Part shown: positions 1-22,140 of the stretch, piece after piece
Layout of the letters: each line of letters starts with the position of its first letter
Numbering within the stretch: the first letter of the stretch is position 1
Origin: a virus
Reading direction: 5' to 3' (one strand)
DNA length: 22,140 bases
Virus record (IMG/VR): IMGVR_UViG_3300031974_001765
Coordinates: 1 to 22,140 of that record
Notes under the pieces: generated by a model
Told to the model about the DNA's origin: nothing
The model's database searches: none
The model's input: only the letters and a program-made list of their open reading frames with translations
Program-made: the position numbers and the translations under genes

Positions 1-2284
1 TATTGAAAGCGAAGTTTTCAGTTCCAGTACCGTAGTCAGAGGAAGATACGGAACCTCCAACCTCATCTCTATCCCAGAAGGAATGGTGATCCCCCATATC
101 CTCCATGATAATATTTGATCCGTTATTAGCAACTAAGCAAGCTCTAGTCGCATGAAGCTCGACAGCCGTGTGGTTTTGTGAATCTTCAAGGCCCCAACCG
201 CTAACATCGATGTTAGCACCGTCTTCAGTTTTGTGGGGCTCGAACTTTATTGTGGAGTTTGCGTCAGCTAAAACATCGACACCAAACTGTCCTATTAAGG
301 TAGGACCGCTAAACCTACAGCTAGAGTTGTTATTAACGGAAATACCTGCGGACTTTACTTGATTTAGAACACCCTCAGGACCTATCAGTATAGAGGCTGC
401 GTGCTTTCCTCCTCTAAACAAGGCTTCTGAATTATTGTTAGCTCTAAGCAAACATCCGTCTACGAAACTGGCTCTCTTATATTCGATTGGAGATCCAGTT
501 CCACCTGGGGAAACTAACCTTCCATAAACAATCTCACACTTAGAGTTGTCTAGGTCAATGCCTGGGGAAGTATTTGATTGAGAGAACCCAGACACATCAA
601 CTCCCATGTTTAGAGAGAAGGTAGAGTAAGGAGAGCTTGTGTAAGCCTGCTCATGTGTCTCTGGTTTGAATGACGAGTTAACCATCTTAAGGTGCCTGCC
701 GTTTGAACAGAAACCTATTTGATAGTTGTGAGATAGCGTTTGAGTTTCGTTAAGAGCAACCAGAGTTTCTCTACCACCTACGGTATTGTAAACAACATTA
801 GAGTTCAGGAGGTTCATTCCGAAGTCCTGATTAAGCTCAACCCACATATTGTCTAGTCTAACAGTAGAACCGAAGCCCTTTAACCCTGTCTTGTTACCAT
901 ACAAGGACAAGTATCCTTTAAGGTCTATTGTAGAATTTCTAGCGTCTATACCTGTAAGGTTATACGATGAGTTAATGATGGTGTAATCAGGATCATCGTT
1001 TCTAGACTGACCTCCAGTTAGAACGGAGTTGTCCAGCAGGATTCCAGTATCATGGTTCTGAATGTTAAAGAAGTAGTCGAGACCTGATACATAGGTGTCA
1101 GGCTTGATTACGATCTCGCTATTAACAACCTTAAGACCGTAGGTATCCCTACCGTGTCGAGTCGTGGTGGTAAGGGGCTCATAGTTTCTACTAGAAGCAA
1201 ACCCTCTTCTCAAGTATACCTTTGAGTTTTCAATAAGGCATCCTACCTCTTTAGATCTCATGGACCCGCAATGCTCCAAGGTCACATTTTCACAGTTAGA
1301 AACCTTGATTCCAACTGTGCCGCTCATTGAAGACTCACTATCATCGTAAGTATAAGGTTCGGAGTAGGAGTCTCCTGCGGGGTCAGTGATAAATCCTCTA
1401 ATGAAAATAGGACCATCACAGTTTGATATGTTAATGTGCCTTAAATAGTTTGAGGTAAAGAATCCGTGTATAGGATCATCAGAATTGTTGGGTACAACAG
1501 TTCTTCTTATAAATGTACCGTCAGTCTCAGCAAAGGTAGAAGCGTCTAAGGTTTCCCATGTTCCTTCCGATCCTATGCCAGATCTTGCGGGTATAGGATA
1601 GAAAACCCTAAGGGTGTTCAGTTTGTCGTGTATACCTTCAGTCATCCTGTCTGGTCTGTATGAAGCTGCGTTGCCGTCATACGCTACCTGACAAAAAGCC
1701 CTAGCGGGATACTTTCCCGAAATAGTTGCTTGATTGAATAGATCCGCAATGTTAGCTGATGCTAATAGACAAGAAGTATCTTGTTGAGTTTGATACATGT
1801 CCGTGGAGGATACTGCTACAACGGAATCATTTAGAACTGTCCTAGAATAGGAACTTGCGCTGTAAGATGTAAGCTTTAATCTGTTTATAATCTCAAGCTT
1901 TCCGTCACCCTCGCACTTAATATTATCAAGGTCTAGCCCGCCTGCATCTCCTGAAACACAAACCTCAATAAGGGTTGGCATTCTAATGATTTCAGGAAGT
2001 GCCTTGATAGCAGATGAAAGATCAGTAAAGAAGTTACAGCTAACATCTAGCTCCGTAGGGATAGAGGATGATACCGCGAGCACCATTCCTGGTATGGACG
2101 AAGTAGGCCACCCTAGCTTCTCCCAAAGGTAGTCCGTCCGCTCCTCTAAATCATAAAGGGGAAGGTTGTCCTGCTCCCAGTTGTAGAAAGAGCTAGTGTC
2201 ATGCTTGGTTACGAATGGGTTCCAGTAGTCGCTTAATAGGACCCCTGAACTTACCGTATATAAATCGTCTGAGTTGAATGCCAT
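1..2284 (-). CDS. Parallel beta-helix tail spike/fibre adhesin (C-terminus cut by window edge)
   Basis: An ATG at 2284-2282 opens a frame with no stop down to base 1, giving 761 codons; the C-terminus lies outside the window. Residues 1-150 form a non-repetitive head with Trp, Asp and Asn-rich segments, probably for attachment to the baseplate. From about residue 280 the protein is built of irregular 20-30 residue coils that each end in short beta strands with an Asn-Ser or Asn-Cys turn (ISNCDG, SNCENVTL, ENSKVYL, VNSEIVI, LDNSVL, RNSTIDL, NNSSCRF). This is the look of a right-handed parallel beta-helix with an Asn ladder, a fold common in phage tailspikes and receptor-binding proteins. No catalytic residues can be assigned, so it may be a binding protein or a depolymerase. 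It starts one base after the preceding stop and lacks a clear ribosome site, so translation is probably coupled. Fold inferred by eye; role inferred from position at the fibre end of the operon. Confidence 0.75.
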   Translation of the reverse strand, partial: MAFNSDDLYTVSSGVLLSDYWNPFVTKHDTSSFYNWEQDNLPLYDLEERTDYLWEKLGWPTSSIPGMVLAVSSSIPTELDVSCNFFTDLSSAIKALPEIIRMPTLIEVCVSGDAGGLDLDNIKCEGDGKLEIINRLKLTSYSASSYSRTVLNDSVVAVSSTDMYQTQQDTSCLLASANIADLFNQATISGKYPARAFCQVAYDGNAASYRPDRMTEGIHDKLNTLRVFYPIPARSGIGSEGTWETLDASTFAETDGTFIRRTVVPNNSDDPIHGFFTSNYLRHINISNCDGPIFIRGFITDPAGDSYSEPYTYDDSESSMSGTVGIKVSNCENVTLEHCGSMRSKEVGCLIENSKVYLRRGFASSRNYEPLTTTTRHGRDTYGLKVVNSEIVIKPDTYVSGLDYFFNIQNHDTGILLDNSVLTGGQSRNDDPDYTIINSSYNLTGIDARNSTIDLKGYLSLYGNKTGLKGFGSTVRLDNMWVELNQDFGMNLLNSNVVYNTVGGRETLVALNETQTLSHNYQIGFCSNGRHLKMVNSSFKPETHEQAYTSSPYSTFSLNMGVDVSGFSQSNTSPGIDLDNSKCEIVYGRLVSPGGTGSPIEYKRASFVDGCLLRANNNSEALFRGGKHAASILIGPEGVLNQVKSAGISVNNNSSCRFSGPTLIGQFGVDVLADANSTIKFEPHKTEDGANIDVSGWGLEDSQNHTAVELHATRACLVANNGSNIIMEDMGDHHSFWDRDEVGGSVSSSDYGTGTENFAFN

Positions 2285-2285
2285 T

Positions 2286-2867
2286 TTAGAATTGTATTGT
2301 CCAAACAAATATTAACGAGAAAGATCTCGTTTTTCTTATACCAGGGAACGGTCTGTAAGCGACTAGGATAGGTGCATGAGGATCAAGACCCCTAGGGTTT
2401 CTCATAAAGAGTCCGATCTCATCAATATCCTCGTCAACATTTAAAGTATTAGGGTCTAAGACTAAAGTAAACCTTACTGAGGTTGGGGTTACTTTATGTA
2501 TATTACTAAATTTTATTCTTGGGAAATCCTTTGCAAGACCTAAAGAACCGTCCTCTATGGGAGTAAACTGCTCTATAACAAGACCCGCATTAGCGCCGTA
2601 ATCCGCCTCATCGAACTGGCCGTTAAGCGTGAAGGAAGAAGCTCCGTAATTAGTAGTATCCCCACCAGAGCCACATGCGAAGTTTAGAATCTGATATCCA
2701 AGGATGGATTGGCTACCTGAAGCTGAGAATAAATGAGACAGGGCCACACCCATGCCTGATGTAATGACATTATTCTCCTCCCACACCAATTCTTTAGTGT
2801 GATCATCTTCGTAGATCTTCCAGATCTCTACATGCCCTTTGGGCTTAAGCTCTTTGGTAACGCTCAT
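2286..2867 (-). CDS. Tail-tip/fibre-region structural protein, third of three tandem paralogues (193 aa)
   Basis: This protein shares two landmarks with the two genes upstream of it. The N-terminal one is a KGxVxI strand, then E-N-x-I-x-x-G-x-G and a short hydrophobic helix ending LFSAS (residues 10-50). The C-terminal one is an E-I-G-L-F motif, RNPRG, a VAYRPF strand and a final FVWTIQF strand (residues 145-193). Proteins with a 'GLF ... ARR.F ... W.I.F' end are frequent in phage tail-tip and fibre-attachment clusters, but I cannot assign a precise role. It is the smallest of the three, with a short middle part. The start at 2867 follows a 53-base gap, the only sizeable one in the block, and has no strong Shine-Dalgarno sequence. 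Its stop is one base before the beta-helix gene. Structural role is inferred from context. Confidence 0.75.
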   Translation of the reverse strand: MSVTKELKPKGHVEIWKIYEDDHTKELVWEENNVITSGMGVALSHLFSASGSQSILGYQILNFACGSGGDTTNYGASSFTLNGQFDEADYGANAGLVIEQFTPIEDGSLGLAKDFPRIKFSNIHKVTPTSVRFTLVLDPNTLNVDEDIDEIGLFMRNPRGLDPHAPILVAYRPFPGIRKTRSFSLIFVWTIQF

Positions 2868-2920
2868 GGCTATACTTAATTATATACTTCTTGTGAATAC
2901 TGAAAGCGAGTTTGCTAACC
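2868..2920 (-). other. Only sizeable intergenic gap in the late block
   Basis: These 53 bases separate paralogues two and three, while every other junction in the 21 kb block is an overlap or a one-base gap. On the minus strand the gap holds TATAAT at 2884-2879, but no good -35 box. The position would give a leader of only about five bases before the ATG at 2867. It could be a weak promoter, an RNA-processing site or a scar of the gene duplication. No hairpin terminator is apparent. Confidence 0.35.
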
Positions 2921-3577
2921 TCATTGAAAATCTATTGACCAGTCGATATCCACGGAAAACTGGTCCGTCTTAGCAATAGAGTGTTGTAGTATCTTGTATG
3001 CCGACAAAACAGGTCTATCATCGGATCTGAATTTCCTAGGATTTCTAATAAAAAGACCAAACTCTTTAAGATCCTGCCCTACCGCAGCCCCTTCATCTAT
3101 ATTAAGTTTTATGTGTATGGCGTCCTCGACAAATCTAGCCGTGGAGGATTTCTCTAGCAGAGCTACTGGCTGATCCTCGTAAATATACGAAAGGTCCGCA
3201 GGGGCTAAAAACTGCTCCTCGACCGTTATTATCTGCTTCTCTTCGACATGAACCGTAGTATCAGTGCCATACTCTGCATAAGTTAAAGGAGTTGAGAGTT
3301 CATAGAAGTTATTCTCGACATCCTCTGGTAGAAGATCCTCCCATCCGTCAAACTGTTCGTCCGTTAAGGAACCCGTTTCCACATAAGAGCTTGTTCCCAT
3401 TTGAAAATATGCAAATTGAAAGTCCGATACATTTCCGTCGAATAGCTCTGAATTGGTAGTAAATAGGTTAACTAAAGCCAACCCTAACCCGTCTGTAATT
3501 ATATTACACTCCTCAGAGCAGACTTGCTCCTTAGTGCCATCCTTGTAAACCTTCGTTATTGTTACGCTACCTTTCAT
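2921..3577 (-). CDS. Tail-tip/fibre-region structural protein, second of three tandem paralogues
   Basis: With the start chosen here the product has 218 residues. It begins MKGSVTI, matching MKGEVEI of the upstream paralogue and PKGHVEI of the downstream one. It keeps the conserved ECNIITDGLG turn, a LFTT helix end, and the C-terminal EFGLFIRNPRKF, LSAYKI and DWSIDF elements. The middle is acidic and differs from its relatives. The start at 3577 forms an ATGA overlap with the preceding stop, as at several other junctions, and has GGAG 12 bases upstream. An in-frame ATG at 3595 would add six residues (MEIEIP) and has AGGG four bases upstream, so the start is not certain. The protein is probably a virion component at the baseplate rim or fibre base; that is inferred from its neighbours and family pattern, not from a recognised named family. 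Confidence 0.75.
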   Translation of the reverse strand: MKGSVTITKVYKDGTKEQVCSEECNIITDGLGLALVNLFTTNSELFDGNVSDFQFAYFQMGTSSYVETGSLTDEQFDGWEDLLPEDVENNFYELSTPLTYAEYGTDTTVHVEEKQIITVEEQFLAPADLSYIYEDQPVALLEKSSTARFVEDAIHIKLNIDEGAAVGQDLKEFGLFIRNPRKFRSDDRPVLSAYKILQHSIAKTDQFSVDIDWSIDFQ

Positions 3578-5313
3578 AGGAATTTCAATCTCCATATAAC
3601 CCTAACATCACCATGGTTGTTTAGACCTTGGTTAGTGCCTTCATCCCTAGACACCACGATATTGTCGTTGAATGTTTTCCTTGCTATCAACTTCTTTTTG
3701 AACTCATCGCCTGCGTCTACATCTTTATTGTATGGAGGCTGTGTGTTGAGGTCTCTCAAGGTTTTTTCTAGATCAAGGGTGTATAGCCCTGCTTCAAATA
3801 TACCTCCATAGAAGTTAGATACAATTGCGTCAGGTTGGGGTATGATAGTTACACAAGATATTTCTCCAACAGAGGAGAAGTCTGCGTTTGCTGATACTAT
3901 CAACCTGCCTGACGCATCCGCCGTATCTCCAAGAGTGGGGTAGTAAGCCCTAATAAACCCGTCCTTATCCATGGTTCTTAAGGATGCATAAGACCCGCTG
4001 ACGCCCACTGCGGATGCCGTTAAAGAGCTAAAATCATTTCCTTGCACAGATGCTACCGTGATACCGCTAGTTGGAGCGTAGCATCCTATATGATAACTTA
4101 AATTATCTGAAACGATAGAGGATGCGCCACTTCCTACATCCCATCCCACTAAGTAACTACTTACATAAATATCATCGAACGAGTTGAAGTTTTTATTATG
4201 ATACCCATCTATGACAAGATCGGAGATGTCTTCCACAGAATACACAGCATGAGGTTCTAGTTCTGTGTTTATAGGATTAGGCATCTCGGGGGCACTAGCT
4301 ACAGCGTTGTAGGCTGAAGTGTCCGTGTAAAGAGTTCCTACTGAGTTACTACCTAGCATGATGCCAGATAAAGATACTGGAGTAGTGAACTCAGAGTAAT
4401 TAGTTATTTGAGACTCCGCTAAGGTGGGCTCGTAATCAGTTGGAAAATTACTCATTACAGCCATAGGTCGTGAAACATAAACACTGCCTAGAGAATCCCT
4501 AACATCAGGGTTAGTAAAACCAAGACCTGTGGCATCAAAAGGAAGTGAAGGATATATTCTAACTCTATGTACGGAACCTGATCCCGTGTCTGACCTAGGA
4601 ACAACACAAGCTCTATACCATCCGTTTCCTAGATTTTTTAAGAATCCTGTTGAGAACTGTGAGTTGGGAGTAAGATCCCTATTGGAGTCTAAAAGGTCTG
4701 CGTTACCACTAGCATCCCATTTGACAACTAGATAAGTATCGGTCCCGTTTTGGTCTAGACCGATTGTACTATACCTTGTCCCGCTAACCTTGTCAGGAGG
4801 AAGTTCTGGCCTGTACTTTAAATCTATGGAGAAAGAGATTTTATCATCCTTACCGTCAGTCTCTTTTCCATTAAGCGCGGTATCCTGGCATAAAGACTTT
4901 CCTTCCTTATCGGTTGATATGGCACTTGCAGTTAGGAGGAATACATTGCTACTTGTATCGGGAGCAGTCTCGTCGCTTACCGCGCTGACGCCGAGATTGA
5001 AGCTTTCCCAAGATGCGTTGGTTAAGTCTTCTGAGTAATCTATAGCATTTATGTTATAGAACTTATGCTCGTTATGTAAGTATCCTAGAGTTCCTTTTCC
5101 AAAAGCAAGTGCTTGAATTGTAAAGTTAGAAGCATCTAGCCTTGCTTGAACATCCTCAGAGGTTCCGCGAGCACCTTCAGCAACTATAGATGAAGGGGTT
5201 GTAAGAAGTGAAACCATAGTCTCACCGAACCCGTCCATGATAAGGTTATCTTCTTTTAGAATAGTTTGGGCAACACCATCAACTATTGATACAATCTCTA
5301 CTTCACCCTTCAT
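3574..5313 (-). CDS. Expanded tail-tip paralogue with inserted carbohydrate-binding-like domain (579 aa)
   Basis: The first 75 residues and the last 80 match the two smaller downstream genes: MKGEVEI, EDNLIMDGFG, LLTT and LAFGKGTLG at the front, then FEAGLYTLD, KLIARKTF and VIWRLKF at the end. Between them lies a large insert. Residues about 90-298 read as a beta-sandwich of the kind often seen in phage tail proteins: an opening YSEDLTNASW, a core DKISFSIDLKYR, a LGNGWYRACVV strand, and a closing VYVSRPMAVM...YEPT. Such domains are CBM-like and are usually taken to bind glycans. Residues about 300-495 are further beta-rich sequence without a recognised family. The gene shares one base with the stop of the gp7-like gene (TGATG) and overlaps the next gene by four bases. 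Likely a fibre or fibre-adaptor protein that contacts the host surface; function is inferred. Confidence 0.75.
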   Translation of the reverse strand: MKGEVEIVSIVDGVAQTILKEDNLIMDGFGETMVSLLTTPSSIVAEGARGTSEDVQARLDASNFTIQALAFGKGTLGYLHNEHKFYNINAIDYSEDLTNASWESFNLGVSAVSDETAPDTSSNVFLLTASAISTDKEGKSLCQDTALNGKETDGKDDKISFSIDLKYRPELPPDKVSGTRYSTIGLDQNGTDTYLVVKWDASGNADLLDSNRDLTPNSQFSTGFLKNLGNGWYRACVVPRSDTGSGSVHRVRIYPSLPFDATGLGFTNPDVRDSLGSVYVSRPMAVMSNFPTDYEPTLAESQITNYSEFTTPVSLSGIMLGSNSVGTLYTDTSAYNAVASAPEMPNPINTELEPHAVYSVEDISDLVIDGYHNKNFNSFDDIYVSSYLVGWDVGSGASSIVSDNLSYHIGCYAPTSGITVASVQGNDFSSLTASAVGVSGSYASLRTMDKDGFIRAYYPTLGDTADASGRLIVSANADFSSVGEISCVTIIPQPDAIVSNFYGGIFEAGLYTLDLEKTLRDLNTQPPYNKDVDAGDEFKKKLIARKTFNDNIVVSRDEGTNQGLNNHGDVRVIWRLKFL

Positions 5314-8300
5314 CAGTTGTAAAACTCCAATTCATTATATCTGTTGTCAGTGAACCAAGTTGTGTCATTTTGATAAGAAGCAGGATGTATTCTGTAATTC
5401 ATCCTTCCACCACCGCTGGTTCCGTAAAGGTCCTCAGTCTTAGAGTTATCCCTAGAAGATATCTCTTCAGAAACATATCTAAAGTGTCTAAAGGCTCTAA
5501 GTAAGTTTTCTGGCGACACGGGATATTGTACTACATCCTCAACAACCATATGGCTTCCTAACTCTAACCCTTGCATACCTAGCTCTTCTGGGGAAAGTAG
5601 ATAGTCTCCTTGTTGAGCAAACTCGCCCACATATTTTGTTGTATCTATGAAAACCTCTGTAGAGGGTGAATCTGTAAGAAGATCCTCAGTTACCCAACGA
5701 GACTTTATGTATGCATATACTTTAGAATACAGCTTTGGTTTCTCAGGTGTTTGAACTACAGGAGAAGTGAAAGCGTATGTAATCTTCTCTCCATTTAGCA
5801 GTATTTCACCATCCTCGTTGACATACATTGCGGTCCCACTAGGAACAGTAGATCCATCAGGTTTATAGAAAAGTATTGATGACACAGTTGCTTGCTCTGC
5901 TTTAGAGAAGTCTGGTATCTCGACTACTTCATTTGTTTTGGTGCAGTAGTTGAAGTAATTGTCAACTATTTGCATACCAGTGTACATCCAGTATTTTCTA
6001 GAGTTAGCCGCTGTATCGGACTCAGGCGCAGTGATTGGGAAAACCTCCACAACATAGCTCTGGTCAAGCCTATGCACTTGATTATGCGCTTGGAAGTAAT
6101 TTAAAGGAACCTTCACGGGTCGGTTCTTTGTATCAAACTTAATTTTATTAACCGTCAAGTTACTAGCGTCAAGGGATAGTAATGAAAGCTTTGCAGGCTC
6201 ACTGTCCTCGTAGCAGGGTATTACATTTTCTAAAACACTGTCCTGCTGCATATCAAAAGTATGAGCAAGTTCGTTCTTAGTTCTAGTTATCCCGTTTCTA
6301 TTTCCTGTAATATAAGATGCATCGTACATCTTCCAGGTTCCATCGGGCATGTAGTTCCAAAAAACCTTGTTACCGTTAACATCATTCTCAGGAACAGTAT
6401 GAATCCAAACACCTAAGGTTCCTCCTCCGATTCTGTTGCTATACTCTTCAAGGAACTGTGAGCTTACCTCGAAACTGAAATCGTGCTCAGGAACTAGCTT
6501 GTTGATTCTTGGACCGTATGAACCTCCACCACCATTATCAGAACCTATGTGATACCTTAGTCTAGGCAGACCGTGAATAGGCTTCATAGTAATAAAGTTC
6601 TTGCCTACTAAATGAGTAGGACCTCCAAGAATACTTCTATCAGCAGATAAGTTGAAGCAGGACATTACATTTCCTGTTGGAGTTCTTAAATCAACCACCT
6701 CTACTCCACTTAACATACCAAAGGATCGCTTTTCCGCTTGCTCTCCTACATACAGGTCAGCTAAAGTATTACCGTCATAAGCATCAACTAAACTTGCATT
6801 AGCTAGAGAGAACACATATTCATCAGATACGGCTCCTGATATCCTGTTATGAGAACTATCGTACTCTGATCCTCTAACAGTTAGTTTTGCATTATACGCA
6901 AGTGGACCGAACGCATGGGATATGACACTAAGTCCTCCATCCTCAAGCGAATTCAACTCAGCGTCCGCAACTGGGTGATTCCCTAGCTGCTTTATGTAAG
7001 CATCGTACAGTCTGTGAATCCCTGCGAAGAGGCTCTTACACCCAGGCTTCGTCTGACCGAACTCAAAATCGTAGTAGTTTGATATTGAATCCTCACCAGT
7101 ATTCATGAGATAATTGGTCAAGCTTTCCACGCTATCTCTAAACGAAGAGGTGTCCAGTAATCTGCTATTCCTTTCGTATATTGCAGCGGCTTTAGCCCTA
7201 GTCTTCTCTTCTATTAATTTGTTAATTAGAATCACAACCTCCGAAAGATTGCTTCTATCAACAAAGAAATGCTCTTGATCTTTTTCTATACTGGAGGTGT
7301 TGGCATAAGTTTGAGCACCTCTTATTTCGTAACAGGCCGAAGTCTCCACACCCTTGTATATTGATGAAGAGTCTACTGTTTCACACTTATCCCACACACC
7401 ACTTACAGGGAATACTACTGGAGTATAGCTGTAAGAACTCGTCTGCCAACCTAGAGGTAAGAACTCATAGGATGCATCATCAGAGGGGTTAGGGTCATAA
7501 GTTACAGTTGTGGATGATACGCCGTTATAGAAAGTTGGTTGGTTGTAACCTGTTCTAGCGTACCACTCACCTTTTGTTAAAGTCTTGGAGTGATCTCTTC
7601 TGCGTACTGCTGTTCTAGGAGCTTCAGCGGTGTAAGGTCCTGATGCAGTTAAAGGGTTTCTAGTAGTCCTAGCCTGACCGAAGATAATCTGCTCCCTCTT
7701 AAAGCATGGTAAGAGCCCGTGAATAATATGAGTCTTAGTAGGATCCTCTACAAAGGAAGGCGTGTAAATATCTCTGCCTCTTAAACCTAAGGATGAATCT
7801 CTCATGTCTAGGCTAGAAGCTTGCCACGATGCAGTCAGTCCAGAAGGTGCTTGAAGCTCAACTAGAGAATACTTTACCTTTGGGAAAAAGTAATCTCCTG
7901 ACGATATCTGTTCGACACCACTTATATCAACATGCACCCTAGGTATAGCCTTAGCTGGGCTGAAGTCTTCGACGGAAGCCAGAGAGTTAGTGAAGTCGTA
8001 TCGGTTATAGTTTGGTGATTGGAAGAAGTCCATATCAAACCCTCCTCCCGATACAGTGAAGTCGAAGTGAGAAGATTTAGCATTCCACATAGGAAGATAC
8101 TTCAATCTTCTCTTATCAAAACTGTTGATTATGTGGTCATGATTGGGTGGAGTATTTAGAACATCTGTAAAAAACAGGAAGGTACTGTTGTATTTCTTTA
8201 TAGGCTGATTGCCAGATACAGTGTTACTTAGTACGAATGTTTTAAAGGTATCCACATACTGAGAACTTACCCCTAAACACTTTAACTCCTCTGAAAAGAA

Positions 8301-9902
8301 GCTTACTAGGTCCTCGTTTAGATCGCAGTCCGTATAAAACTTTTCTTCTTCCCAAGGTGGTATCTCGAAAGCACGACCTCTGTAATTAAACCTAAAGCTT
8401 CGGTCTTCTGGGTTGAACCTATACCCTCTGATGTTGAATAAATCAGGAAACCTTTTTACTGCTCTAAGCAAGATATGATCAACAGTATATCTTATATTTG
8501 TCTCTAAGTTAGCAGGGTCATACTCCCCGTTGTTGAACTCAAGAGATTTTTTATGTGTCCATGACTCTAGGCTATCAAACTGAGGAGATGCTGTAGCTAA
8601 GAGATAGAACATTAGCTGGGGAATGTAGGACTCGTAGAACTCGGATATGGCCTCTTGGAAGTCTATGCCTGTCCCTGGTAGAATACTGTTGATAAGTGCT
8701 ACCAGTCCATCCTTGGTTCCTTTCTTCTTGTAAAGGTCTACAGCATTTCTTAGCTGCCTTCTCCAAGACGATATGTCGTTGTTGTAAAACTTCCATCCTA
8801 TAATGTCAGCTAGGTATGGAAGTAATTCGGGAGGACAATCATCTATAGACTTAACTGCTCTAAGCTTTTCGTTATACTCATTTATGTCGGCAAACATGAA
8901 GGATACGGCCTTCATGAATCTAGAGAAAGGCGCTTCTCTGCTCTCGCCATCGGGATACAATGATGAATCGAAATACTCTTGAAGTAAATCTCTCATGTAA
9001 GTATCATCTCCAGATGAATACTTATTCCCGTAGATTACATCAATTAAGGTAAGGTATCTATCTAGCTGTTGGCTTCCACTAGTCCAAGTGTCTATTCCAG
9101 AAGAGTAACTTGAATGAATGTAGTCACCGTATAACGGAGTTCCGTAAATCCACTCTCCTGCAAACTGTGTCCCTGATACGCTTCTACCGTCTTGGTTATA
9201 CCAAAGAAACTTGAATACAGCTTTTATAGCGTCATTTAGAGTAAGGTTCTGACCTTGAAACAACTTTTCGCAATATAGATCAAGGAGAGCGGAGGATGGG
9301 TCGTAAAATTCTATTGACGCTGGGTTGGCTGCTGGGCCATACCCAGCGTCCTGATTTAGGTAGTAAAACCACGACAGGGCGTCTGAAAGATACTCATTAG
9401 TGCCGCTGGCCGTATTTGAGAAGGCACTTGCGGTAGTGTCATCTAGATCAACAAAAGTCGCGGGTCTTCTTTGTCTAATTCCAAACGCAGGAATGGTTGG
9501 CAGGAGAGTTCCTGAAAGGTAACTTTTAAACTCTGCTGATGTTGAGAAATCAGAAAAAGACTTGCCTACCTTATTAAGTATTTTTAGCTCGAAGTCCCTA
9601 GGAGAAAGCTCTGTTAAATTATTCTGGGGTACGAACAGTGCGGCCAATCCTGAAAAGGTGTTTAGATCAAAGTTACCTGCATCAAAGGTGCTTGAAAAGT
9701 TTATAGGTCTTCTACCAATAGACTTGTCGTAACTAGGGTTTGATTGAATACACCCATTTATAAGGTTAATTATTCCTGCGCTAACCTTGTCTATAGGATT
9801 AGTTTCAAACCCACTTAAATCAATATCCCTCTCCTTGTAAATAGAAGGAGTTAGAATATCAACTATCTCGTCGTAGTTTCTTTTGAAGTAGCGATTAGAC
9901 AT
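5313..9902 (-). CDS. Giant gp7/GpI-like baseplate wedge protein (1529 aa)
   Basis: Residues about 345-412 carry the signature of the phage tail protein I family: SIDDCPPELLPYLADIIGW, then WRRQLRNAVDLYKKKGTKDGL and a hydrophobic LINSILPG. In P2 this small protein follows GpJ, and in T4 the equivalent place is taken by gp7. The gene sits directly after the gp6/GpJ-like gene with an 8-base overlap, which supports the same role of linking the wedges to the outer baseplate and fibres. It is far longer than P2 GpI (under 200 residues) and longer than T4 gp7 (about 1030). The rest is beta-rich. A stretch near residues 1130-1190 (FSFEVSSQF, TLGVWIHT, WNYMPDGTWKMYDAS) resembles a lectin-like sandwich, but that is only a guess. 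No signal peptide, membrane segment or repeats are seen. Confidence 0.85.
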   Translation of the reverse strand: MSNRYFKRNYDEIVDILTPSIYKERDIDLSGFETNPIDKVSAGIINLINGCIQSNPSYDKSIGRRPINFSSTFDAGNFDLNTFSGLAALFVPQNNLTELSPRDFELKILNKVGKSFSDFSTSAEFKSYLSGTLLPTIPAFGIRQRRPATFVDLDDTTASAFSNTASGTNEYLSDALSWFYYLNQDAGYGPAANPASIEFYDPSSALLDLYCEKLFQGQNLTLNDAIKAVFKFLWYNQDGRSVSGTQFAGEWIYGTPLYGDYIHSSYSSGIDTWTSGSQQLDRYLTLIDVIYGNKYSSGDDTYMRDLLQEYFDSSLYPDGESREAPFSRFMKAVSFMFADINEYNEKLRAVKSIDDCPPELLPYLADIIGWKFYNNDISSWRRQLRNAVDLYKKKGTKDGLVALINSILPGTGIDFQEAISEFYESYIPQLMFYLLATASPQFDSLESWTHKKSLEFNNGEYDPANLETNIRYTVDHILLRAVKRFPDLFNIRGYRFNPEDRSFRFNYRGRAFEIPPWEEEKFYTDCDLNEDLVSFFSEELKCLGVSSQYVDTFKTFVLSNTVSGNQPIKKYNSTFLFFTDVLNTPPNHDHIINSFDKRRLKYLPMWNAKSSHFDFTVSGGGFDMDFFQSPNYNRYDFTNSLASVEDFSPAKAIPRVHVDISGVEQISSGDYFFPKVKYSLVELQAPSGLTASWQASSLDMRDSSLGLRGRDIYTPSFVEDPTKTHIIHGLLPCFKREQIIFGQARTTRNPLTASGPYTAEAPRTAVRRRDHSKTLTKGEWYARTGYNQPTFYNGVSSTTVTYDPNPSDDASYEFLPLGWQTSSYSYTPVVFPVSGVWDKCETVDSSSIYKGVETSACYEIRGAQTYANTSSIEKDQEHFFVDRSNLSEVVILINKLIEEKTRAKAAAIYERNSRLLDTSSFRDSVESLTNYLMNTGEDSISNYYDFEFGQTKPGCKSLFAGIHRLYDAYIKQLGNHPVADAELNSLEDGGLSVISHAFGPLAYNAKLTVRGSEYDSSHNRISGAVSDEYVFSLANASLVDAYDGNTLADLYVGEQAEKRSFGMLSGVEVVDLRTPTGNVMSCFNLSADRSILGGPTHLVGKNFITMKPIHGLPRLRYHIGSDNGGGGSYGPRINKLVPEHDFSFEVSSQFLEEYSNRIGGGTLGVWIHTVPENDVNGNKVFWNYMPDGTWKMYDASYITGNRNGITRTKNELAHTFDMQQDSVLENVIPCYEDSEPAKLSLLSLDASNLTVNKIKFDTKNRPVKVPLNYFQAHNQVHRLDQSYVVEVFPITAPESDTAANSRKYWMYTGMQIVDNYFNYCTKTNEVVEIPDFSKAEQATVSSILFYKPDGSTVPSGTAMYVNEDGEILLNGEKITYAFTSPVVQTPEKPKLYSKVYAYIKSRWVTEDLLTDSPSTEVFIDTTKYVGEFAQQGDYLLSPEELGMQGLELGSHMVVEDVVQYPVSPENLLRAFRHFRYVSEEISSRDNSKTEDLYGTSGGGRMNYRIHPASYQNDTTWFTDNRYNELEFYN

Positions 9903-11469
9903 ATTCTATATTTATAACAAGGTTATTTAGCTGAAGAATCTCGTTGAACTCCAGACGAATATCATTATCAAGGTTGTCTACGCGACAAATACGAACCTCA
10001 TCTACATTATCGAAGACGGCTCGATTTATATCTGCTAGTAGAAGCCTCTCACCAAACTCTCTGTTGTCAACATTAAAGAAGTTGCTAACCTCGGTAGAGG
10101 CTTTTCTAATAATCTCTCCCTCCTTTGGTTTGAACTTATCAGAGACTGAAATTGTAACAACAAGGTCTACAGTTCTTATGAGTCCATCGACTAGCACTAT
10201 TTCATCAGTCAGCATCTTCTTTCCCTCAACAGCTTGAAGGAATGCGTTCTTAAATGCTATTGAAGCCTTCTGTAGTTGATTGGTGGATGCTTTTTCAAGT
10301 ATGAACAGGTCTACAATGTTTGCTGAAGAGTAGGACTTTCGCGCAGAAGCTGTGGCCTTGGCTGATGAACCTGTGGGGCCTACAAACCTTGCAGCAAATG
10401 ATTTGTAGTCATCCAAAGAAACTAACCTATCCTGAGTTCTAAAGTTGAGTGGTCCGTACTTCTTCGCCTTATCGACTGTCTCCGCTTCTGCTCCTCCCGT
10501 GATTGCCTGAGTGTTTTCTACCTGAGCATTCTTGCCTGGGGTAGTAGTCCTTACTGTGCTGTTAATGTAGCTTCTAGGGACATTACCCCTAGTACCTCCA
10601 CCTACTCTGTAAGTAATAACATAGTCAGAACTGTTTGGAGGAATCACACCATTAGTTCCATCTCCAAATATAACAGTGGCGCGGTAATCGTCATCATATT
10701 TTATTGAAAAGATTCTTTGATCCGTAGATGAAGCAGCATATAAACTATCTACTTCCACATAGGCACCGCTTGCGGTAGTGTCATCAGAATTTACAAATAC
10801 CTGGACACTGCTTTCAATAACTGGGCCTTCAGTTAAGCCCACCTCTTTAACATTGTCTACTTCATTGAAAGGACCTGTTTCTCTAGCAAAGCTGCCCTCT
10901 AATAAAGCTAGGTTTGACCAAACACCTGGGGCATCAGCGTCAGCACTCTCTAAGGCTATAGTTGAATCAGAGTTTGGATCGTCTATTAATCCATTAGTTA
11001 CTGTGTACAGAGTGTAAGTTACTGGCTGCCCGTCATCAGGAGAGGTAACTGTAATTACTCTATTTGCTGGCTCGATTACATAATCTCCAGCGGTATCTAA
11101 GGTTACTGTAGCACCGCCTGCACCTGCCACAGGACCTCTTAGCCTAATACCGATAAGCTCTAAAAGTTTCCTTACATTAACCCTGTCCTTGGCTGTCTTG
11201 ATAAAGGATTCATGGGCTAACATATCACTTTTGTATGACATCACGCTGCCCATATAAGCTACTAGCTCGATAAACATCATGCCAAGGTCAGACTCTTCAA
11301 AGTTATTGTAATCGTTAGGATAAACCGCCTTTACATAATCAATAAGAGACTCTCTGAGAGTTGCGAAGTCTGTAGCCGTAAAGTCTACTAAATCTCCTCT
11401 GTACTCCTCGTCTACAGGAGATACCTTTAAGAAGTCTGACTTGGCTGTTGTGTATGGAATGTTACTCAT
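9895..11469 (-). CDS. gp6: Baseplate wedge protein, T4 gp6 / GpJ family (524 aa)
   Basis: The N-terminus has the typical gp6/GpJ start: TATDFATLRESLIDYVKAVYPNDY, then a F-E-E-S-D-L-G-M-M-F-I-E-L-V-A-Y-M-G helix, and a helix ending KDRVNVRKLLELIGIRLRG (residues about 30-115). The middle holds beta-rich segments with IFGDGTNGVIPP and VTYRVGGGTRGNVP-like motifs of the baseplate J domain (residues about 265-300), followed by RTQDRLVSLDDYKSFA. In contractile tails this protein dimerises into the inner baseplate ring that joins the wedges. At 524 residues it is a little shorter than T4 gp6 (660). The ATG forms an ATGA overlap with the end of the gp25-like gene, and AGG lies seven bases upstream. 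The order gp25, gp6, gp7-like matches other contractile phages. Confidence 0.93.
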   Translation of the reverse strand: MSNIPYTTAKSDFLKVSPVDEEYRGDLVDFTATDFATLRESLIDYVKAVYPNDYNNFEESDLGMMFIELVAYMGSVMSYKSDMLAHESFIKTAKDRVNVRKLLELIGIRLRGPVAGAGGATVTLDTAGDYVIEPANRVITVTSPDDGQPVTYTLYTVTNGLIDDPNSDSTIALESADADAPGVWSNLALLEGSFARETGPFNEVDNVKEVGLTEGPVIESSVQVFVNSDDTTASGAYVEVDSLYAASSTDQRIFSIKYDDDYRATVIFGDGTNGVIPPNSSDYVITYRVGGGTRGNVPRSYINSTVRTTTPGKNAQVENTQAITGGAEAETVDKAKKYGPLNFRTQDRLVSLDDYKSFAARFVGPTGSSAKATASARKSYSSANIVDLFILEKASTNQLQKASIAFKNAFLQAVEGKKMLTDEIVLVDGLIRTVDLVVTISVSDKFKPKEGEIIRKASTEVSNFFNVDNREFGERLLLADINRAVFDNVDEVRICRVDNLDNDIRLEFNEILQLNNLVINIEYV

Positions 11470-11906
11470 AGTGTTACCTGCACATCCGCAATTGCGTTGG
11501 TGCCCGTATCTACAACGGACAGTTTTATCAAGATTCCTGAAAGACCAGAATACTTAACCGTGTCTACAGGACTTACTTTTAATTCTAAAATTTTAACGGT
11601 AGGGAGATAATTCTCAAGGCTTGCTACAATCTCGAACTCAATCTGGGTAGTCGCGTCCTCATCATAAGGATCGAAAAGAAATCTCCTTATACCTATCCCA
11701 AAGTTAGGGAGCATTACCCTCTCACCTTTATCAGTTAGCAGAAGTTGTGTTATCTGAGACTTTAAAAGGGCAGACCCGTACTCACTGGTCACATAGTTCT
11801 TAGTATTTTTTCCAAAAGGGTAGCCTACGCCCAAAATCTTGTCACTGTTAACAAGAGTTACAGACTTGTCTACCTCCCTACTAGGTTGTGATCCGTACAG
11901 TACCAT
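11466..11906 (-). CDS. gp25: Baseplate wedge protein, gp25 / GpW lysozyme-like family (146 aa)
   Basis: The sequence shows the family's core: VGYPFGKNTKNYVTS, a helix SQITQLLLTDKGERVMLPNFG, IGIRRFLFDP, then a helix with EIVASLENYLPTV and a strand KILELKVSP. The G-E-R-x-x-x-P-x-F-G segment is the family's most conserved stretch. Length agrees with T4 gp25 (132 residues). Although called lysozyme-like in older annotation, the family is structural: it nucleates sheath attachment and sits in the inner wedge core with gp6 and gp53. The start shares one base with the preceding stop (TGATG), and the gene overlaps gp6 by four bases. Confidence 0.94.
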   Translation of the reverse strand: MVLYGSQPSREVDKSVTLVNSDKILGVGYPFGKNTKNYVTSEYGSALLKSQITQLLLTDKGERVMLPNFGIGIRRFLFDPYDEDATTQIEFEIVASLENYLPTVKILELKVSPVDTVKYSGLSGILIKLSVVDTGTNAIADVQVTL

Positions 11907-14611
11907 CAGACATCTATATCCTCGAAGAATCCTTTGTGAGCCGTGTAGTTTTTATAAGCTTCACTTATATTTAGAGGCTTACTGTAAACTTTAAAACTTC
12001 CAATATGGCCTGTCAGACCGCTGTAGAAGCCATGGCTTGTAGACATAAAGCCCCCTGAACTGGCGTCCACAGGAATCCCGTCAGTCCAGCCTCCCCCTAC
12101 AATCCAAGGAGTGAAGAATACATCATTGACAGGTCCGTTAGCAAAGTCTGTGGTTTGTTCATTAGTTAGCTTCGTGGTGTCATAGAAGAAACTAGGATCA
12201 TCTGAATCCATGGGAGAGATAAAGGTAGGTATTCTGGCGGGCTCTTTCTCTGTAGTTCCGAAAACCTCGCTATACGCCTTGGACGCTAACAACTCTCCAT
12301 TGAGGAATACTGAGATAAGATCATTTCTAACATCCATAGACACAGACAGATGGTAGAAGTCTGAAGATAGATCAAGAAGCCTGTAGCCGCTGGAAGTGGT
12401 GGCAGTTACATCAACTGACATATTGAGATATGTGTTAACTTGATTCTCGCAATCACCTGATCTTATAAACTCAACATCCGTACCGTTAATAGATTGAGTT
12501 GGAGCTATAAAGAAGCTTATCGAGCTTGTGGTTGAGGAAGTGTCTATATTTAAAGAAGCCCCTGGGTCTAGGTCTGTTCCCCTTGCTTGAACTGATTGCT
12601 GTGTTATCTGAGGATCTCTGGTGAATCCCATCAACATTCCCTTGACAGTCTTGGTCCCAAACTGACTCGATTGCGTTTCTGCGTTTCCTGTGAACGAGCC
12701 ACCGATGTTCTCGTTTGCAAGTATTATCTTGTAGAAGTTGAAGTCTGTCCAACTTGCGTCTGAAGCTTGCAGGTTCATATCAGCGGATGCATCAGTAATC
12801 TCAAAGAAGTTTGAGGAGCCGCAGAAGTTAGGCATGTGAAGCCACATATCAAAAGAACATCCCGAAGTGTTATACATCAGGTTTTGCATCTCTTGTGTTT
12901 GTGGTAATCTTAAATAAGAGCCAAGCCCCGAAGGTGCGAAAGTTCCTTGTCCATCATTAAGATACGCATAACGAACTATCCCGTCCAGCTTAGGTATAGC
13001 CAGTCCGCTAACAAATACAGATTGGAGACTTTTTCCGACTAGCTGTGCGTTGTTGTACCCTGCCTCAGTGTGATGGTTTAGAATCTTAAACTCTGTTGAG
13101 TTGGGGCTCTCTACTTCAGGCACCAAGAATGAATAACAAGCTACTAAGGATTTGGTGGTGATGTCATCAGTTACCGTCAGTGCTGGGGATGTTGTAGAGG
13201 AGACTTCGTTCAGATCTACAATCGCTCCCGTGCCCATATCAGCCACCTCGATAGGATCGATAATTGTTCTTCGGTTGGCAGCAGTAGCTCTTACGAAAGT
13301 TGGTCTAATGGGAAGAACTATATCTTCAACCTCACCATGATCGAAAGTAAGTATGCGCTGCTTCTGAATGGATATGTTAAGGTTTATATTTCCAAGGTAC
13401 GAGAAATCATTAACGGGTACTTCCCCTGGTCTAAAGAAGTTCTCAGTTCCAAATAAGTCTTGAGACTTAACAGCGACTTCAATCTGCTTCTTTCTCTTGT
13501 TTATCTTCCTGTCATACTCATCCAGGGTACTGAAGAGTTGTTGCTTTATGTTTATAATAAGAGCCGAGTCCTCTGTGTAACCAGAAGCCTCAAGCTTTTC
13601 TCTTTGCTTTTTTAGCTCATGAACCGCAACATTCTTCTGCCCAAATAAGGCAGTGAGGAAAGTATCCTTGTCGTAGTATATCTTTAGGTTATCTGAGTCA
13701 TCAATCTGACCAACATCTAAAATGGTATCAAAATATCTCTCAAGCTCTTTGATAGAGAATGATGTACCCTTTCCTCCTAAGTTGGCGGGGTGTTCAAGTT
13801 TCCACTTACTTGGATCTGGTACGAATCCAATATCGGCTTCGGACGGTAAAGAACCACCTTGATATCTCCTGCCCTGGCTGTCATAGTACAGACCGTCTTC
13901 TGATAACAGGTACTGTCCTGATTTGGACTTAGGAGGGCCGTAGACGAGTCGGAAGATGGGTTCGACCTCACCATCATCCCCAACCGCAGAAGTCGTTATA
14001 CCGTTCAATACGGGCTCTCTGGTGGGATCAGCGACTCGCTCCCTGATGATATCGTCAATGTTAGCTAGTTGGTTGTTTACGCTCTCAATGTACTCTAAAG
14101 CGTTTTGTATTTCAGCCTTAGCTACTACAAGAGAAACAGATGTGGGATACTTTGGACCAGAGTTATCGTTACCTTTGTCAAGCCATTGCTCAACCTGACT
14201 AATGCAGTCCTCTATCTGCTGTATAAATTCTTGAGCTACTTGGTAGTTCTCCCATAAGGCAGCGCCTGCGCCAGCCAAAGCTCCAAGGAACTCTCCTACC
14301 TCTCCTAGGAAATCAAGCTCACCGTTCTCTATACCATTCTTGGAGGACCCCGATAAGAAGACCAGTTTGCCCGTAGTGGTATCAAACTCAACAATTCCCG
14401 TATCTCGGAAGAGCTTCTTTACTGCGGTAGCCATAGCTGCCTGAGCAGCGGCCTTTCCTTTAATAAGACCCTGAGAGAATCCACCTAGCATGGAAGTTGG
14501 TAGCAAACTTAATATTTCCTTACTGAAATCGACTAGGCACTTAGGCGCACCGTATTGCATCCCTAGCTCACCTAAGGGATCATTCAGTAGATTTGGATTA
14601 AACTTAACCAT
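11906..14611 (-). CDS. Large virion structural protein with coiled coil and C-terminal LamG-like domain (901 aa)
   Basis: I do not recognise a named family for the whole protein. Residues 40-130 are helical and Ala/Gly-rich. Residues 120-195 and 325-385 look like coiled coils (for example KKQREKLEASGYTEDSAL and EYDRKINKRKKQIEVAVKSQ). Residues 225-300 contain a Tyr-rich section (SEDGLYYDSQGRRY, KWKLEHPANLGGKG). Residues about 480-895 form a laminin-G/concanavalin-A-like sandwich: SCSFDMWLHMP, then FYHLSVSMDVRNDLISVFLNGELL, and finally HIGSFKVYSKPLNISEAYKNY, which is the usual last strand of such domains. LamG-like domains usually bind sugars or mediate protein contacts. The gene lies between spike and gp25, where P2 has nothing (V is followed directly by W). 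It overlaps the spike gene by eight bases. It is probably a baseplate component, perhaps attached to hub or wedge. Confidence 0.75.
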   Translation of the reverse strand: MVKFNPNLLNDPLGELGMQYGAPKCLVDFSKEILSLLPTSMLGGFSQGLIKGKAAAQAAMATAVKKLFRDTGIVEFDTTTGKLVFLSGSSKNGIENGELDFLGEVGEFLGALAGAGAALWENYQVAQEFIQQIEDCISQVEQWLDKGNDNSGPKYPTSVSLVVAKAEIQNALEYIESVNNQLANIDDIIRERVADPTREPVLNGITTSAVGDDGEVEPIFRLVYGPPKSKSGQYLLSEDGLYYDSQGRRYQGGSLPSEADIGFVPDPSKWKLEHPANLGGKGTSFSIKELERYFDTILDVGQIDDSDNLKIYYDKDTFLTALFGQKNVAVHELKKQREKLEASGYTEDSALIINIKQQLFSTLDEYDRKINKRKKQIEVAVKSQDLFGTENFFRPGEVPVNDFSYLGNINLNISIQKQRILTFDHGEVEDIVLPIRPTFVRATAANRRTIIDPIEVADMGTGAIVDLNEVSSTTSPALTVTDDITTKSLVACYSFLVPEVESPNSTEFKILNHHTEAGYNNAQLVGKSLQSVFVSGLAIPKLDGIVRYAYLNDGQGTFAPSGLGSYLRLPQTQEMQNLMYNTSGCSFDMWLHMPNFCGSSNFFEITDASADMNLQASDASWTDFNFYKIILANENIGGSFTGNAETQSSQFGTKTVKGMLMGFTRDPQITQQSVQARGTDLDPGASLNIDTSSTTSSISFFIAPTQSINGTDVEFIRSGDCENQVNTYLNMSVDVTATTSSGYRLLDLSSDFYHLSVSMDVRNDLISVFLNGELLASKAYSEVFGTTEKEPARIPTFISPMDSDDPSFFYDTTKLTNEQTTDFANGPVNDVFFTPWIVGGGWTDGIPVDASSGGFMSTSHGFYSGLTGHIGSFKVYSKPLNISEAYKNYTAHKGFFEDIDV

Positions 14612-21285: not shown

Positions 21286-21576
21286 ATGAGGAATGCAGAT
21301 ATAGAACTAATAGAGTTGTTAGATTTACTAGATTACACCTTTAGTGATGATTTTGTAGAGAAATGGAGATATAGGTTCTCTACTAAGTTCATTAAGAACT
21401 TTCAATACAGAATACTTAAAAGCCTACAAGAAAAGAAACCTGTAAAGGAGAAGTCTCTATACCTTTACCTTACAAAGAAGTGTAAGTACGCTGAAGAGCA
21501 GGTTGATGATTTCTTTGAGGCTATCGACATAACGCTCTATTATCCGATGGTGATCCCATGTACTGCGAAACGATAA
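21286..21576 (+). CDS. Small helical protein of unknown function (96 aa)
   Basis: First gene of the rightward operon. The product is all-helical by appearance: ADIELIELLDLLDYTF, a basic amphipathic WRYRFSTKFIKNFQYRILKS, then EKSLYLYLTKKCKYAEEQVDDFF and EAIDITLYYPMV. The 'LYLYLTKKCKYAEEQVDDFF' part could be a small winged-helix-like or adaptor fold, but that is speculation. I take ATG 21286 because a longer TTG-initiated frame from 21235 would have its start inside the promoter's -35 box. No clear Shine-Dalgarno sequence precedes it. Its end overlaps the nuclease gene by 19 bases, so the two are probably translated together. Markedly AT-rich compared with the nuclease gene. Confidence 0.6.
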   Translation: MRNADIELIELLDLLDYTFSDDFVEKWRYRFSTKFIKNFQYRILKSLQEKKPVKEKSLYLYLTKKCKYAEEQVDDFFEAIDITLYYPMVIPCTAKR

Positions 21577-22140
21577 GTAACTCAAAGCGTGAAACTTTCC
21601 GCCAGTGTCGTCTTAAGTATAAATATAACTATGTGAACCGTTACGAAGACACTGACCCAGGCAACACAGGCGCTCTGCACTTTGGATCTTTTATTCATGA
21701 GGTGTTTGAGCATTCTACCAACGCCACTTCCATCGACCAACTTTGGGCCAAGGCTAACGAGATAAAGGACAAGTACAAGTTCCCAGACAAGTACAACAAA
21801 GACATTGAGAAGTGCTTCAAGAACTTCCTTCGATTCAACGCATCACTTCCGAAGGAGTCCATTGTGGAGCATCACTTTACAGAGGAGATTGCTGATGGAA
21901 TCAAACATGAGGGATATATTGATAGGATTATCAAAGCACCCACAGGCGATATCCTGGTTGTGGACTACAAGACATCCAGAAGAGAAAAGACTAAATTCGA
22001 ACTCTTCAACGATAGCCAAGGGAAATCTTATGTCTACGCAGCACACAAGCTTACGGGTGTCCCTATACGAAACATTACCTTCGCCCACTATTATCCTCTA
22101 TCAAACAATCTTGTCGCGGCTACCTACACCGAGGCGACTA
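21558..22140 (+). CDS. PD-(D/E)XK nuclease, RecB/Cas4-like exonuclease (3' end beyond window)
   Basis: The frame opens at ATG 21558 and runs to the window edge with 194 codons and no stop. It shows the PDDEXK_1/Cas4-RecB pattern in order: SNSKRETFRQCRLKYKYNYV (start helix with Cys17), GALHFGSFIHEVFEH with His47, HEGYIDRI with Asp122, DILVVDYKTSR with Asp136 and Lys138, and QGKSYVYAAHKL with Gln154 and Tyr158. These are the metal-binding and catalytic residues of the family. It would act on DNA as an exonuclease or endonuclease in phage replication, recombination or host DNA breakdown. A Cas4/AddB-like iron-sulphur cluster would need three further Cys near the C-terminus, which is not visible. 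Overlaps the upstream gene by 19 bases. Codons are richer in C-ending triplets than in the upstream gene. Confidence 0.88.
   Translation, partial: MYCETISNSKRETFRQCRLKYKYNYVNRYEDTDPGNTGALHFGSFIHEVFEHSTNATSIDQLWAKANEIKDKYKFPDKYNKDIEKCFKNFLRFNASLPKESIVEHHFTEEIADGIKHEGYIDRIIKAPTGDILVVDYKTSRREKTKFELFNDSQGKSYVYAAHKLTGVPIRNITFAHYYPLSNNLVAATYTEAT

Follow-up and report, generated by a model that had tools for sequence, protein, structure and literature searches.

The window analysed here is the complete virus record IMGVR_UViG_3300031974_001765, a 22,140-base genome fragment of a contractile-tailed phage. Its minus strand carries a contractile-tail operon in the order gp25-BaseplateJ-Tail_P2_I-C-B-A-fibre (F1), in which A, B and C encode proteins referred to below as cradles. 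The genes and their parts are as follows.

2..2284, minus strand: F1, long fibre/spike-like protein; begins 2 bases past A and is cut by the contig end
2286..2867, minus strand: gene A, 193 aa; minimal cradle, payload-free
2921..3577, minus strand: gene B, 218 aa; acidic, the second of the cradle paralogues
3574..5313, minus strand: gene C, 579 aa; third cradle paralogue and the most diverged, carries an internal insert
5023..5313, minus strand: C front, residues 1–97; conserved cradle front
4345..5022, minus strand: C insert, residues 98–323; predicted CBM4-like jelly roll (strands ~103–286) and linker
3577..4344, minus strand: C rest, residues 324–579; C-specific middle and conserved cradle end
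5313..9902, minus strand: Tail_P2_I (gpI-like) protein, 1529 aa; PF09684, 29.9 bits against a cut-off of 20.6
9895..11469, minus strand: baseplate wedge gp6/BaseplateJ; phrog_219, 6.8e-35; PF04865
11466..11906, minus strand: baseplate wedge gp25; PF04965, 3.2e-11

The coordinates and lengths given for the three cradle genes in the original prediction are correct, including the 218 aa of B, whose start is conserved in relatives; the ORF program begins B six codons earlier (224 aa), and the closest relatives, L001 and L002, use the ATG that gives 218 aa. For F1 the better start is the ATG at 2284, which is also kept in relatives. The F1 homologues of L001 and L002 measure 1161 and 1158 aa, and complete ones range from ~1,020 to 1,260 aa. 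Ahead of gp25 (11906–14611) lies a gene for a 901-aa protein with weak LamG-like/CBM matches near its C-terminus (residues ~692–793). An exonuclease gene on the plus strand (21558–22139; phrog_1218, E=6.7e-23) points away from the tail operon.

Scans with the A, B and C profiles collected 43 distinct loci, and the order gp25-J-T-C-[B]-A-F1 is kept in every locus whose contig spans it. A is constant, measuring 190–217 aa in all relatives and never bearing a payload. C is lean in 17 loci (337–427 aa, no insert). With one insert it measures 532–638 aa, the insertion site lying after ~residue 97 (site 1) in the clade of the window and elsewhere; L057, L059 and L060 have their insert further along the protein (site 2). 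The insert is doubled at site 1 in L042 and L043 (793 aa), and C of L097–L101 has a very large middle (about 1,200–1,540 aa). Relatives with differing inserts and conserved ends, which the original prediction had named as worth looking for, therefore exist.

B is present in 22 of the 43 loci, absent from 18, where A comes directly after C, and undetermined in 3. The plain-ended forms of B are the 218-aa one of the window clade and the 243-aa one of L091, and most other B proteins carry homologous, beta-rich extensions of 630–790 aa. Two B proteins bear domains of other kinds. B of L059 (L059:9424-13593, 1389 aa) contains a sulfatase domain (PF00884, E=1.2e-23) within the tail operon, with a CSPTR motif that fits the sulfatase signature. 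B of L090 (L090:11011-13635, 874 aa) contains an alpha/beta hydrolase-like domain with a GFSMGG motif and Pfam matches below the cut-offs, probably an esterase.

The three cradles are tandem paralogues. A and B align over their full length by BLASTP (E=1e-18) and over 182 columns in a profile–profile comparison (E=4.5e-30). The front of C matches B and A by BLASTP at 2e-5 and 0.003, respectively, and its sub-profile scored 48 against B and 34 against A, compared with best shuffles of 21 and 18. The front described earlier as common to the three genes is thus real. Nearly all the motifs quoted for the family are present, with A-Y-x-x-F missing from B, and the acidic character ascribed to B corresponds to a pI of 4.2. 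AlphaFold2 models of A (pLDDT 88, pTM 0.84) and C (pLDDT 78.9, pTM 0.80) contain the same order of elements, namely two strands, a helix and a strand, followed past the middle by five strands to the end. Structure prediction, one of the checks proposed at the outset, gave agreement in secondary-structure order.

The end of C is the weakest link in the case for paralogy. Its similarity is not detected by single-sequence HMM searches, and a sub-profile built on eight sequences was borderline (score 20 against a shuffle of 18). As the similarity at the front spans just ~40–60 residues, C could be an otherwise unrelated protein that has only a short N-terminal docking tag in common with A and B. 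Deeper profiles argue against this reading. The lean-C end scored 34 against the B end, with a shuffle maximum of 20, and the pooled C ends matched the pooled A and B ends at E=9e-6, with a shuffle maximum of 15.5 in a rerun with a second setting; searches with the ends alone, also proposed at the outset, thus recover the shared end. Together with the strand order predicted for both A and C, these results make a separate origin of C highly improbable. Duplication of one cradle is supported, A and B being alike throughout and C being joined to them by a strong match at the front and a moderate one at the end.

A and B match nearly the whole profile of phrog_5417 (156 aa, function listed as unknown) at 5.7e-5 and 6.2e-7, respectively, over profile positions 7–156, and 32 of 33 A homologues also match the family. 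Window C has no phrog_5417 match, and just 2 of 36 C homologues have one, at ~0.06. Searches of annotated phage proteins with window A, B or C found no relative. Divergent A homologues reach the named phages Vibrio phage D69, Pseudomonas phage vB_PpuM-Peetri and Vibrio phage GR7B, in which all are annotated as 'hypothetical protein'. The named phrog_5417 members lie between baseplate and fibre genes, like the cradles, but are single-copy and insert-free in the phages examined (Peetri, D69, GR7B). PDB sequence searches returned nothing of use and Foldseek of the A model against PDB gave no match below 0.1; against predicted viral proteins (BFVD) the model had 29 matches below 1e-3, and tail-collar fibre proteins followed just past that threshold.

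These collar proteins point to the N-terminal domain of P2 gpH, residues 1–151 of which match PF12571 (Phage_tail_fib). Window A, B and C all fall short of the PF12571 gathering score, likewise the other A and C homologues. A set of 13 PF12571-type N-termini aligned in register with the named phrog_5417 proteins over 104 columns (E=2e-5), and compared directly with the window lineage it gave a motif-level match only. The two families are bridged by a 152-aa protein encoded directly after the Tail_P2_I gene of the 595-kb phage LR756511 (L122:21350-21808). This protein passed the PF12571 cut-off of 23 bits with a score of 39.9 and matched the profile of window-lineage A at 6e-4 and that of A with the named phages at 4.8e-7, with shuffles far lower. 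Because the intermediate matches both PF12571 and the A-like profiles, the cradle is a remote relative of the fibre-anchoring domain at the gpH N-terminus, while not being a member of the Pfam family. The two also resemble each other in the EIGLF/REIGLYD core motif and in position. In P2 the order is W-J-I-H, with gpH following gpW-gpJ-gpI, and C lies directly downstream of the Tail_P2_I gene, in relatives as in the window. Different from gpH, the cradles are stand-alone proteins that occur as tandem pairs or triplets, one member having an internal insert; A is a separate 193-aa gene followed by F1 and does not form the N-terminus of the fibre polypeptide.

The lean-C profile aligns to residues 1–97 and 324–579 of window C and leaves residues 98–323 over, in line with the claim that a module has been inserted. 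Foldseek of the C model against PDB matched the CBM4 of CelK (3p6b, 8e-4), agarase CBMs and Eph ligand-binding domains, as well as baseplate proteins of Pa193 and phi812. Because of the CBM4 and agarase CBM matches, residues ~98–300 are modelled as an inserted CBM4-like jelly roll, which agrees with the 'CBM-like sandwich' first suggested for this region. Window C has no Pfam match to PF02018 (CBM_4_9), and one C homologue matches it at E=0.0019; the insert resembles CBM4/CBM9-type modules in its predicted fold but misses their Pfam model, and it would probably bind carbohydrate. The possibility that the C insert is the same domain as the B extension was rejected, a GWYR motif being their sole common feature.

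The closest functional analogue of C is the evolved Dit known from siphophages of lactococci and other Gram-positive bacteria, a tail-tip core split by an optional insert of one or two CBMs that promotes adsorption (PMC10688798). In both, the halves of a core (1–97 and 324–579 in C) align with an insert-free form around a CBM-like insert. However, Dit is the central hub of siphophages, whereas the cradle would be a collar-type protein at the periphery of a contractile tail, and the cradle paralogues carry other payloads. The cradle core gave no Dit match in PHROG, Pfam and Foldseek BFVD searches and is of the phrog_5417/tail-collar type. No literature on multiple collar paralogues bearing payloads was found. 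Each part belongs to a known kind, and the arrangement is real and richer than first stated.

The original prediction held that the three genes diversify by exchange of swapped-in inserts. The two distinct insert sites, the doubled insert, the very large replacements in L097–L101 and the unrelated payloads on B would all fit frequent recombinational exchange. In the tree of the baseplate J protein, however, the loci with a site-1 insert form one group (99/99), the lean loci without B a separate group and the site-2 insert loci another. Since the carriers of the site-1 insert make up a single clade of this tree, the insert was gained once, inherited and then diverged, rather than being swapped in recently, and the other gains lie at another site. 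Among the relatives compared, no close pair combined matching ends with unrelated inserts. Divergence is often faster in the insert than in the front (39% versus 66% identity in L046/L053), a difference not seen among the closest relatives of the window. B has a single origin, since the B proteins form one clade in a tree of A and B proteins (97/91; recovered in 96% of bootstrap trees). L042/L043 form the sister group of the window clade, and their B carries the extension common to all extended clades. As this sister clade and others have homologous extensions, the simplest reading of the short window B is a loss of the C-terminal extension, of which a search elsewhere in the window found no match. 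The history of C and B is one of gain, loss and divergence, and frequent swapping between close relatives is decidedly unlikely.

Because C carries a sugar-binding-type domain and relatives of its sister copy carry enzymes, the set resembles a mount for different cell-surface tools. We consider it likely that A, B and C are tandem tail-fibre collar adaptors at the baseplate, with lineage-dependent payloads on C and B and with A mounting F1. In P2-type phages the N-terminal PF12571 domain probably holds the fibre next to gpI, and the cradles would similarly dock at the baseplate periphery beside the Tail_P2_I protein, the 1529-aa product being their likely docking partner. A would be the plain adaptor and most likely mounts F1, since it directly precedes F1 and never bears a payload. 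C would display the jelly roll, most likely to grip a surface glycan, and B would be a third adaptor, not present in every lineage, on which gain, replacement or loss of the C-terminal payload differs between lineages: B is plain in the window, and the payload is beta-rich in sister clades and a sulfatase or probable esterase elsewhere. The paralogues may be present in the virion and may form a mixed complex. C would contribute to receptor binding, and the payloads of B would act enzymatically in the lineages that have enzyme domains. Placed directly after the gp6- and gpI-like genes, the cradles could instead be internal wedge parts of the baseplate like T4 gp8, gp9, gp10 or gp11, with the C insert as a structural spacer or subunit contact. 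The top Foldseek match of C, 9b45_1 (E=2e-8), a baseplate chain of Pa193 whose length is compatible with the described wedge protein gp46 (PMC11042391), would agree with such a role, as would the constant lack of a payload on A. Against it speak an insert that is optional in relatives and varies in site and copy number, its frequent divergence ahead of the front, and the enzymes carried by sister copies, so that a wedge role is unlikely.

With the cradles as collar adaptors, phrog_5417 gains a likely role, being tied to the collar of P2-type tail fibres. The CBM-insertion strategy of evolved Dit would then be seen in contractile phages as well, extended to paralogues that bear enzymes such as the sulfatase, a payload that would suit hosts with sulfated polysaccharides. 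Relatives differing in the number of inserts at a single site, from zero to two, offer a natural experiment on the role of the insert. More tentatively, and somewhat against our expectation, large contractile phages may possess a modular adhesion crown, in which two or three paralogues occupy different positions of one heteromeric ring as independent sockets for payloads that bind sugars or are enzymes (jelly roll, sulfatase, esterase); if so, host range would shift by refitting the sockets while the fibre stays unchanged.

F1 and F2, the two proteins past A (window 2–2284 and L001:9423-11816), have in common the N-terminal motif W-E-x-D-N-x-P ... L-E-E (profile E=2.6e-5) and may be a second tandem paralogue pair. 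Among the matches of the A model are also proteins from tailed viruses of haloarchaea and from filamentous viruses of archaea (Betalipothrixvirus uzonense B2CRN3, E=1.9e-8; SIFV Q914H2), which would mean a fold common to tailed and filamentous viruses.
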